DNA from: Slackia sp.
GTDB taxonomy: Bacteria > Actinomycetota > Coriobacteriia > Anaerosomatales > Anaerosomataceae
Reading direction: 5' to 3'
Assembly: GCA_020725885.1 (NCBI GenBank)
Contig: DYEA01000002.1
Span: 62,001-126,000 of the forward strand
DNA length: 64,000 nucleotides
Below, piece by piece: positions 16,152 to 38,506 of the stretch. The notes beneath the pieces were generated by a model. The model was given only the letters and a program-made list of their open reading frames with translations. It ran no database searches and was not told where the DNA came from. The position numbers were made by a program, and so were the translations under genes. Every line of letters starts with the position of its first letter. Within the stretch, counting starts at the first letter, position 1.

Positions 16152-16853
16152 CTACTCGAGTTCGTCGGCCTGCGACTCCAGACGGGACTTCATACCGATC
16201 AGATCGACCACGATCTTCCGGCCCTTCGTCCGCACAAGACCCTCGCGCGCAAGAGCGGAGATGGCGCGGCTCGCGGTCTCGCGAGACGTCCCGGCGAGCG
16301 ACGCGATCTCCGCGTGCGTGAAGCCCTCGATGACCGGAACGCCAAGCGACTCGTAGGACGCGGTCGCGATGTTGAGCACCACTCGCATCACGCGGTGGTA
16401 CGCGTCGTGGAACACCACGTCCTCGAGACGCGCGATGAGCCCGCGAACCCGCCGGGACAGCGTCGCGATCAGCGTCACCGCGAGCTTCGGCTGGATCTGC
16501 ACTGCCGCAGCCAGATCCCGCCCGTCGAGCATGAGCACCTCGACGTCGGTGACCGCTACCACGTCCGCCGACCGGGGCTCCGCGTCGACGACGCTCATCT
16601 CGCCGAAGTGCGCTGGTGCTTCAAGGTAATCAAGCACGAGCTCTTTGCCTTGCACCGACGCGATGGCCACCTTGACGCGTCCGGAGGTGAGGAGGTACAT
16701 CGCGGTGCCTGGCTGGTCCTGCGAGATGATGTGCGAGCCCTTCGAGAACCTTCGGTAGACGAGCAGCCGCGAGAGCCGCACGAGATCCTCGTCCGGCAAC
16801 CCCGCGAACGCGGGGAACGCCCGGATCCGGGCGAGCGACGACTCCTCTGGCAC
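16152..16853 (-). CDS. Crp/Fnr-family transcriptional regulator
   Basis: A 233-residue regulator with an N-terminal cyclic-nucleotide-binding-type beta-roll (residues about 10-130) and a C-terminal winged helix whose recognition region reads 'THAEIASLAGTSRETASRAI'. The protein contains no cysteine, so it cannot carry an FNR-type iron-sulfur sensor; the effector is unknown. The start is GTG 16853 behind GAGGTGGG. Neighbours are the cytochrome b5-domain gene downstream and, upstream beyond a terminator, the large FAD/Fe-S oxidoreductase gene. Its targets cannot be assigned. Confidence 0.9.
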   Translation of the reverse strand: MPEESSLARIRAFPAFAGLPDEDLVRLSRLLVYRRFSKGSHIISQDQPGTAMYLLTSGRVKVAIASVQGKELVLDYLEAPAHFGEMSVVDAEPRSADVVAVTDVEVLMLDGRDLAAAVQIQPKLAVTLIATLSRRVRGLIARLEDVVFHDAYHRVMRVVLNIATASYESLGVPVIEGFTHAEIASLAGTSRETASRAISALAREGLVRTKGRKIVVDLIGMKSRLESQADELE

Positions 16854-16906
16854 CGATGCCCACCTCGCTTCCTGTTCGTCCGTGGCCGTTCGGCACTAGT
16901 GAAACA

Positions 16907-35768: not shown

Positions 35769-37757
35769 CTACACCTCCGGGGCGGTATCCAGGATCTTCT
35801 GGACGATGCTGGGATCGGCCAGCGTGCTGATGTCGCCGAACGCCTCCATGTCGCGCTCGCCTGCGGCGATCTTCCTCAGGATGCGCCGCATGATCTTGCC
35901 CGAACGGGTCTTCGGAAGTTCGGGAACGAAGTGGATGAAGTCCGGCTTCGCGATCGGGCCGATCTCCTCCCGGACGTGACCGGTGAGGATCTTCGACAGC
36001 GCCTCGCTCGGCTCGTTGCCGTGTCTGAGGATGACGTAGGCGTAGATGCCCTCGCCCTTGACATCGTGCGGATACCCGACGACGGCGGCCTCGGCTACCG
36101 CAGGATGGCTCACGAGCGCGCTCTCGATCTCAGCAGTGCCCATGCGATGACCCGACACGTTGATGACGTCGTCGACACGGCCGAGCAGCCAGTAGTAGCC
36201 GTCCTCGTCCACGCGTGCGCCGTCACCAGTGAAGTACCTGCCAGGGAAGGCCGAGAAGTACACTTCCTTGACCCGCTTGTTCTCTGGATCGCCCCAGGTA
36301 CCGCGGAGCATGCCCGGCCATGGCTTCTTGATGCACAGACGCCCGCCGCTGCCGACCGGCGTAGGAGTACCGTCTTCGTTCACTACCTCCGGCACGATGC
36401 CGAAGAACGGGCGGGTGGCCGAGCCCGGCTTCATGGGCGTGGCGCCAGGCAGGTTCGTGATGATGTGGCCGCCGGTCTCGGTCTGCCAGTAGGTGTCGAC
36501 GATCGGCACGCGCTCCCGGCCGATGTTCTTGTAGTACCACATCCACGCCTCTGGGTTGATCGGCTCGCCGACGGTGCCCAGGATACGGAGCGTGCTCAGG
36601 TCGTACTTCGCCGGCCACTCCTCGCCCGCCTTCATGAGAGCGCGGATGGCCGTCGGCGCCGTGTAGAACTGGTTCACGCCGTGCTTCTCGATGATCTCCC
36701 AGAACCGGCCTGGATCCGGATACGTCGGGACGCCCTCGAACATCAGCGTCGTCGCACCGACGGCCAACGGCCCGTAGACGATGTACGAGTGCCCGGTGAC
36801 CCAGCCGATGTCGGCGGTGCACCAGAACACGTCCTCGTCGTGGTAATCGAAGACGTACTTGAACGTAGTGGCTGCGTACAGAAGGTACCCGCCTGTCGTG
36901 TGCAGCACGCCCTTCGGCTTGCCGGTCGAACCAGAGGTGTACAGGATGAAAAGCGGATCCTCCGCGTCCACCCACTCGATCTCGCAGTGCCGCTTGACGT
37001 CGGCGGCCCGCACTTCTTCGTGGTACCAGAAGTCGCGACCAGGCTCCATGTCCACGCGGGTCCGAGCACGCGACACGACGATGACAGACTCGACCGACGG
37101 GCACTCGAGAAGCGCCACGTCGGCTTCGGCCTTCAACGGCGTGAGGCGGCCGCCGCGGATGCCTTCGTCCGCAGTGATCAGCATCTTCGCTTCGCAGTCC
37201 TGGATGCGGTCGCGGAGCGCGGCCGACGAGAACCCGCCGAACACCACCGAGTGGATGGCGCCGATGCGAGCGCACGCGAGCATCGCGATCGGCAGCTCAG
37301 GGATCATCGGCAAGTAGATGGCGACGCGGTCGCCCTTCTTGATGCCGTGCTTCTTGAGGACGTTCGCGAACCGGCAGACCTTGTAGTACAGCGACTGGTA
37401 GGTGTACATCTTCGTGCGGCCCTCGTCAGACTCCCAGATGATGGCCGCCTTGTTCCTCCGCCAGCTGTTCAGGTGCCGGTCGATGCAGTTGTAGGACACG
37501 TTCAGCTTGCCGCCCTTGAACCACTCCACGCGCGGCGTGTCGAACTCGTACTCCAGGACTTTGTCCCACTTCTTGTGCCAGTGGAGCATCTCCTCGGCCA
37601 TCTCCGCCCAGAACCCCTCAGGGTCTTCGACAGAGCGGCGATACATCTCCTCGTACTGCTCCATGCTGTTGATGTACGCACGCTCAGAAACCCATGCGGG
37701 CGGTGGGATGACGCGGGATTCTTGCGACAGCGCTTCGATGTGCGTCGACTCCGTCAT
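35769..37757 (-). CDS. acsA: Acetyl-CoA synthetase (AMP-forming)
   Basis: A 662-residue ANL-superfamily enzyme that activates acetate with ATP and CoA. The A3 loop '[19 protein letters not shown]', '[10 protein letters not shown]' (A5), '[20 protein letters not shown]' (A7-A8) and the C-terminal '[11 protein letters not shown]' containing the acetylatable Lys are all present. Full length for the family. It is a single gene bounded by a terminator, with about 450 nt of upstream sequence that also holds a candidate RNA gene on the other strand. It may serve acetate assimilation or recycling. Confidence 0.96.
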
Positions 37758-37948
37758 GCTCGCCTCCCTCGTTCCGTGCCGGCTGCATCGTCACGCGACG
37801 GCCTGACCGGCCTCGCGCCGTGACGCAATGGTACGAGAGGTGGCGTCCATCAGAGCCGGCCCCCGGGCGTCTGGCGGCGAATTCTCGGTGGGCGGCGCTG
37901 CGCCGTCGGCCTGCGGCGGGCGCGAACCGCCAGCACGAGGGGCTGTTG

Positions 37949-37969
37949 CACCGATGTTTCACCGATGTT
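37949..37969 (+). repeat. Direct repeat CACCGATGTT twice, 11-bp period
   Basis: Two identical 10-mers at 37949-37958 and 37960-37969 are spaced by one helical turn. They end 23 bp upstream of the -35 of the candidate RNA promoter, the usual place for an activator site. Confidence 0.55.
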
Positions 37970-37992
37970 GCCGACCGCCTGCGTAACTGGAG

Positions 37993-38021
37993 TTGCAAAT
38001 GTCCGCTCGCTGCGCTATGGT
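37993..38021 (+). promoter_or_regulatory. Sigma-70-like promoter of the candidate RNA
   Basis: TTGCAA (37993-37998) and TATGGT (38016-38021) are separated by exactly 17 nt. Transcription would start near 38028. Confidence 0.6.
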
Positions 38022-38027
38022 CCGGTG

Positions 38028-38198
38028 CGAACAGTTTCCCTTCCCTCAGTGCGAGCCGGCATCAGGCGCGCCGGCAGGCTACAGGATCGGAGACCGGCAT
38101 CCCGATCCGGCGACGGGACGTCGCTGGCCTAACGAGACTCAGGGGTAGACAGGGAAGGAATGGCGAGAGCCCTGGCCCGAAGGCCAGGGCTCTCCGGT
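38028..38198 (+). ncRNA. Candidate stand-alone structured non-coding RNA
   Basis: About 170 nt lie between a good promoter and a strong hairpin terminator, with no coding frame of interest. The 5' end CCTTCCCT (38039-38046) pairs with AGGGAAGG (38151-38158) to close the molecule. Inside are GCCGGC/GCCGGC (from 38055), GGATCGG/CCGATCC (38083-38107) and GCGAC/GTCGC (38110-38124), the last two enclosed by AGGC/GGCCT. The next gene downstream is on the opposite strand, so it is not a leader for a plus-strand gene. I do not recognise it as SRP, 6S, 5S, RNase P, tmRNA or a known riboswitch. Read the other way, the region would be part of the acs leader. Confidence 0.5.
38165..38194. terminator. Strong bidirectional hairpin terminator
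   Basis: A perfect 13-bp stem (GAGAGCCCTGGCC) has loop CGAA on the plus strand and a stable C(TTCG)G tetraloop on the minus strand. It is followed by TTT on the plus strand. It could end both the candidate RNA and the convergent ferredoxin/DegV transcript (stop at 38210). Confidence 0.75.
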
Positions 38199-38209
38199 TT
38201 CTCGAAGGC

Positions 38210-38506
38210 TCACGCGTTCTTAGCCGATGCGGGGCGCACGGGCCGCACTACCAGTCCGTCGGCGACCTCTGCCAAGCACGCCAGCGTCATCCCCTGAGGG
38301 ACACGCGCGGCGCGCCCTTCGGCCGGACGGACAGCCGCAGGCTCGCCAGCCAGCACGCGCACCGCGCAGTCACCGCAACTCCCACGGCCGCCGCAACTGG
38401 ATGCGATCCGAAGGCCGGCGCGGCGGGCCGCCTCGAGCACCGTCGTGCCGCAAGGCACGACGGCCTCGAGGCCGTACGGCTCGAACCGGACGCGGCAGCT
38501 CCCCAC
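38210..38506 (-). CDS. [2Fe-2S] ferredoxin-like protein
   Basis: A 98-residue plant-type [2Fe-2S] ferredoxin domain. The cluster loop is 'SCGGRGSCGDCAVRVL' (CxxxxCxxC) with the fourth ligand in 'LACLAEV'. Proteins like this occur alone or as the N-terminal domain of reductive activators; here it is stand-alone. GTG 38506 follows the degV stop by 1 nt (TGACGTG) with GAGGA upstream, so it is translationally coupled to degV. The electron partner is unknown. Confidence 0.88.
   Translation of the reverse strand: MGSCRVRFEPYGLEAVVPCGTTVLEAARRAGLRIASSCGGRGSCGDCAVRVLAGEPAAVRPAEGRAARVPQGMTLACLAEVADGLVVRPVRPASAKNA

Follow-up and report, generated by a model that had tools for sequence, protein, structure and literature searches.

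OLE and raiA are structured noncoding RNA classes in which long unpaired, near-invariant segments suggest a protein-binding or tertiary core. Redox control of a smaller RNA is described for RoxS of Bacillus subtilis, which is linked to the NAD+/NADH balance and whose promoter is bound by Rex (PMC5419742). The published Rex site of Staphylococcus aureus is TTGTGAA-W4-TTCACAA (PMC2883068). The first isolates of the actinobacterial order Anaerosomatales were reported in 2022, and its isolates use H2 or formate for growth, together with sulfur compounds or Fe(III) (PMC9686372).

We analyzed a locus from this order within a 64,000-nucleotide stretch of DNA (the window), where an undescribed stand-alone structured RNA had been proposed to lie in a gene-free gap of about 450 nt. 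The gap measures 452 nt, from the start of acs, the acetyl-CoA synthetase gene (37757, minus strand), to the end of a ferredoxin gene (38210, minus strand), both identified from Pfam. Comparison of homologous loci shows a stand-alone plus-strand gene for a structured RNA, with its own sigma-70-type promoter, core and terminator and a predicted length of about 165 nt including the terminator. The original prediction is thus supported by conservation across the order, by compensatory changes and by a promoter and terminator on the plus strand. The promoter, the 8-bp pairing of the transcript ends, the internal hairpins of the multibranch (P2 and the junction of P3, P4 and P5) and the 13-bp terminator are all present as it described them. 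The features of the locus are:

37981-37998, plus strand: palindromic operator-like element GCGTAAC-TGGA-GTTGCAA overlapping the -35, from comparison with the order consensus
37993-38021, plus strand: promoter, with -35 TTGCAA (37993-37998), a 17-nt spacer and -10 TATGGT (38016-38021), conserved across homologues
38034-38161, plus strand: conserved structured core, GTTTCCCTTCCC ... GGGAAGGAAT, roughly 130 nt, from homologue comparison
38039-38046, plus strand: 5' strand of P1, CCUUCCCU, pairing with 38151-38158
38055-38075, plus strand: P2 hairpin GCCGGC...GCCGGC, from comparison and fold
38076-38130, plus strand: P3 (AGGCU/GGCCU) around P4 and P5, a three-way junction, weak in the window species
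38084-38108, plus strand: P4 hairpin GGAUCGG-A-GA-[CCGGCA]-UC-CCGAUCC, from comparison
38110-38124, plus strand: P5 hairpin GCGACG-GGA-CGUCGC, variable in sequence, from comparison
38134-38147, plus strand: near-invariant, mostly unpaired strand GAGACUCAGGGGUA between P3 and P1, from comparison
38151-38158, plus strand: 3' strand of P1, AGGGAAGG, pairing with 38039-38046
38165-38194, plus strand: intrinsic-terminator hairpin of 13 bp (38165-38177 with 38182-38194), CGAA loop and a weak T-run downstream, from conservation and fold
38210-38506, minus strand: gene for a 98-aa 2Fe-2S ferredoxin-domain protein, from Pfam

The RNA is found in nearly all of the order's genomes that were searched. Searches with blastn gave matches in 26 of 27 genomes of the same family, and a first covariance model, built from 25 same-family sequences, identified homologues in 64 of 69 genomes of the order, distributed over 16 families. 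A broader model again recovered 64 of the 69, representing 37 of 40 genera. The covariance model search of 329 other genomes of the same class yielded no convincing homologue; two weak matches (G103 and G157) were rejected as having neither the motif nor the synteny. In a 396-genome sample of the phylum, the broader model recovered its own genus and one match at E = 0.008 (G593) that we treat as chance. The exact two-motif pattern occurs 39 times in 84,980 named species genomes, and the labels of the matches (Anaerosomatales, Coriobacteriia, unclassified Actinomycetota) place the window in Anaerosomatales/OPB41; two of the MAGs among them bear other genus labels and are probably misnamed. No match was found in viral contigs or plasmids. 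Judged from the genomes searched, the RNA is restricted to the window's own order, Anaerosomatales.

Each genome with the RNA carries a single locus, divergent from acs. One genome also has a partial second copy at a contig end (G094 C37:5-80), possibly the result of an assembly split. Wherever the neighbors can be assigned, the RNA lies on the plus strand between acs and a ferredoxin or degV gene, both on the minus strand, and the core lies 215-439 nt upstream of acs. The region directly upstream of acs (37757-37980, minus strand) contains KCCGBMYACC-type repeats; of 60 loci, 37 have one or more and 14 have two or more. The repeats, about 21-22 nt apart in some loci, lie upstream of a TACCAT-like -10 and resemble a site for an activator of acs. 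On the other side of the RNA, many other families of the order have their ferredoxin match within a longer open frame, of about 500 codons or above, and this suggests that the gene is either shortened in the window's family or a different gene.

The core consists of an end-pairing stem (P1), the P2 hairpin, the three-way junction and the unpaired 3' strand. Across the order P1 takes the form CCUUCCC/GGGAAGG and is recovered in most independent single-sequence folds, the remaining helices in many of them. Some folds, including that of 38023-38204, contain an alternative P1 that pairs the first UUCCC with GGGAA and the second CCC with CAGGG. However, most sequences prefer CCUUCCC/GGGAAGG, which is lengthened in two loci that have GGGAAGaGGAA; the alternative may represent a second state in these fold models. 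The P4 hexaloop CCGGCA is invariant in all 62 distinct sequences. The tip of P2 (CGG-GGAAU-CCG) is near-invariant in other genera and lost in that of the window, and in many deeper families the P5 loop reads CCAGGCA. In seven loci of one family (f10: L070, L071, L079, L081, L086, L091, L093) the middle of the RNA is rearranged, with the CCGGCA loop and the 3' strand GAGACUCAGGGGUA kept.

Covariation across related genomes gave compensatory changes above shuffle controls. It was counted on a sequence-only alignment with shuffles as the null, and 88% of the cells counted are paired. Double-change cells number 53 compared with 22.4 in shuffles, the covariation score is 0.186 compared with 0.111 (0 of 500 shuffles reach the observed value), and each of P2, P3, P4 and P5 scores better with its own partner than in 300 of 300 partner shuffles; the relatedness of the sequences inflates such tests, and these values are strong indications, not formal p-values. 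The score also falls when the pairing partners are slid, and one pair in the P2 tip is seen as C-G, G-C, U-A, A-U, G-U and U-G. P1 is hardly tested by covariation because its pairing is nearly invariant. The folds of 38029-38196 (z -4.1) and 38023-38204 (z -3.2) are each better than all 200 dinucleotide shuffles. The comparative evidence settles that this is more than chance structure, and the compensatory changes argue for an element that acts at the RNA level.

The reverse strand of the locus also folds better than shuffles, so folding energy alone cannot choose the strand. Among 46 distinct terminators, however, the wobble cells read as plus strand comprise 34 G-U and 1 A-C, which together with the promoter indicates a plus-strand transcript. 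In nearly all homologous loci the core is preceded, at a distance of 10-25 nt, by a promoter of the form TTGC..-16 to 18-TAnnn(T/C), and from its spacing the RNA is predicted to start at about 38027-38031. The terminator hairpin is followed by a weak T-run, which averages 3.4 T in 12 nt. A generic consensus scan flagged neither promoter nor terminator, and the case for both is therefore made from their conservation. The gene has its own promoter and terminator, a conserved structure with covariation and no open reading frame, and indels in its variable hairpins are not multiples of three. As originally proposed, the downstream gene is convergent, here and in the loci examined, so the RNA does not lead any plus-strand gene.

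The original description did not include a palindrome at the -35 that resembles sites of a respiratory regulon. The order consensus is TTGTAAC-N4-GTTGCAA, of which the -35 forms the right half in 41 of 63 loci. About one locus in three, that of the window species (GCGTAAC) among them, has lost the left half-site or has a degenerate one, while the -35 stays. Ten relatives together have 29 occurrences of TGYAAC-N4-GTTRCA, and the RNA promoter accounts for ten of them; the 19 other sites compare with 5 for a reversed-pattern control. We inspected the neighbors of 27 site-bearing loci other than the RNA in ten genomes. The sites adjoin nuoA at ten, including twin-site operons in the window's genus, and fdhG, a TAT-signal molybdopterin subunit of the formate dehydrogenase type, at nine. 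Two adjoin the small subunit of a NiFe hydrogenase, and two a tungstate-type ABC transporter beside a mobA-like gene. Thus 23 of the 27 have a respiratory or tungstate/mobA-like neighbor, and four do not. The window's own genome has three sites, one a twin site, at two nuo (complex I) operons (C6:24568-24702 and C8:68584-68599); these are TGTAAC-N4-GTTACA-like and lie upstream of the operons.

The motif defines what appears to be an undescribed respiratory regulon across the order, and the growth of isolates on H2 or formate (PMC9686372) fits it. Given the similar sites ahead of nuoA, fdhG and NiFe-hydrogenase genes, the RNA seems to belong to a respiratory or redox regulon. We strongly infer that its transcription is controlled by a regulator binding TTGTAAC-N4-GTTRCAA. 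The predicted site overlaps the -35, and binding should therefore repress. The first candidate binder is a repressor of the Rex type, which NADH would release. Three Rex-domain proteins are encoded in the genome, one of them confirmed as Rex by NCBIfam, and the geometry of the palindrome and its regulon fit Rex. However, the S. aureus half-site differs from the TGTAAC of the RNA operator (PMC2883068). The surroundings of the three rex genes showed no operator. Two CRP/FNR-type regulators, also encoded in the genome, are the second candidates; one such gene lies in the window (16152-16895, minus strand) and is a possible alternative binder of the palindrome.

Our best explanation, which we hold with about even confidence, is that this is a redox-controlled, trans-acting structured noncoding RNA, probably working through a conserved and possibly protein-binding core. 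The RNA would be made according to redox or electron-donor state, through the operator it shares with nuoA, formate dehydrogenase and NiFe hydrogenase genes. A repressor bound over the -35 would block its synthesis and, if of the Rex type, would be let go by NADH. The RNA would then act in trans to adjust carbon and electron flow, which is the weaker part of the proposal. The invariant CCGGCA loop and the GACUCAGGGGUA strand would be recognized by a protein or by tertiary structure rather than exposing an open antisense seed. The latter is disfavored because the complement of GACUCAGGGGUA is essentially absent elsewhere (of 62 matches to the 12-mer complement of the invariant strand in the 69 genomes, almost every one is the RNA itself) and P1 holds the C-rich segment in paired form. 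A tentative extension of this proposal is that the RNA represents a new redox-controlled class unrelated to known families, in which the CCGGCA loop and GACUCAGGGGUA strand form a ribonucleoprotein or tertiary machine coupling the oxidation of H2, formate and NADH to acetyl-CoA and acetate metabolism.

It is possible, with a probability well short of even, that the RNA is instead a constitutive housekeeping ribonucleoprotein RNA, similar in spirit to 6S, OLE or raiA, with a core that binds a protein or large complex and a palindrome that just tunes the promoter. The extreme conservation of the unpaired segments, the single locus per genome in 37 of 40 genera, the retention of the -35 where the left half-site is lost and the lack of a conserved antisense target would all be consistent with this. 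However, 41 of 63 loci retain the palindrome, which agrees with the sites of a respiratory regulon, and restriction to one order speaks against a universal role.

It is rather unlikely that the RNA acts by base pairing in the manner of RoxS/RsaE, with P1 opening and the C-rich 5' segment UUUCCCUUCCC blocking the Shine-Dalgarno sequences of metabolic mRNAs. This C-rich end is complementary to GGGAAGG-type ribosome-binding sites, and the redox-type operator recalls the Rex control of RoxS (PMC5419742). However, the segment is paired in P1 in most predicted folds, rather than exposed as a seed, and its pairing partner is equally conserved. A search of the acs leader for a conserved 7-8-mer complement found none; the short complements present there are not conserved.

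The multibranch fold, the conserved unpaired strands and the terminator immediately after them would also suit an RNA that senses a ligand, regulates its own termination accordingly and leaves a short regulatory transcript. This is very improbable, since the downstream gene is convergent wherever assigned, rather than in the same orientation as for a riboswitch or attenuator, leaving nothing to control in cis, and no alternative anti-terminator pairing was established. Least probable is a cis-acting leader within the acs transcript on the minus strand, or a DNA-level regulatory sequence of acs: although the position upstream of acs is constant, the core is 215-439 nt away with the acs-proximal repeats and a -10-like element in between, the promoter, terminator and G-U wobbles indicate the plus strand, and the compensatory changes imply an RNA, so that conservation solely as an acs leader does not hold.

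If the redox-controlled, trans-acting RNA is the correct reading, the predicted operator suggests an RNA layer inside the respiratory regulon of H2- and formate-oxidizing organisms. Should the regulator be Rex, Actinomycetota would have come to pair a redox repressor with a small RNA independently of RoxS in Firmicutes. The near fixation of the unpaired strands over 16 families points to a specific binding partner. The gene is unlisted, with no Rfam 15 family, and is present in nearly all members of an order of largely uncultivated subsurface actinobacteria.

No common housekeeping RNA had been recognized in the locus, and an Rfam 15 scan of the window agrees, with no family reaching the gathering threshold. 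Scans at E<=10 of the window and eight homologous loci gave chance matches, mostly of rnk_pseudo or DUF3800-type families to the generic terminator hairpin. A literature search of openly available papers found no description of the RNA. The RNA resembles 6S RNA (RF00013) in standing alone, in its similar length and in its paired ends. However, 6S RNA is rod-like with a central bubble and the Anaerosomatales RNA is branched; with no RF00013 match in or near the locus, this identity was rejected. A candidate elsewhere in the genome (G000 C6:358309-358485, minus strand; 46.0 bits against the Rfam cut-off of 46.4) is probably the true 6S RNA. Bacterial Y RNA (YrlA type) shares an end-pairing stem, and P1 has a possible bulged C, but it was rejected as no TROVE/Ro (Ro/Rsr) protein was detected in the genome and no Y RNA match was found.

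RoxS/RsaE of Bacillus and Staphylococcus gave no family match at E<=10 in targeted scans. They have a redox-repressor operator at the promoter, a tie to central carbon and NADH metabolism and C-rich segments (PMC5419742), the first of which may have a parallel here in the operator-like palindrome of Rex geometry. However, the Anaerosomatales RNA keeps its C-rich segment paired in the end stem, has a far more elaborate and conserved core and comes from a different phylum. The RNA shares long unpaired, near-invariant segments with OLE and raiA, but it has no sequence or structure match to them in Rfam 15, is much shorter than OLE and occurs in one order. We place it, as a new family, in the broad category of bacterial noncoding RNAs that are structured and stand alone.
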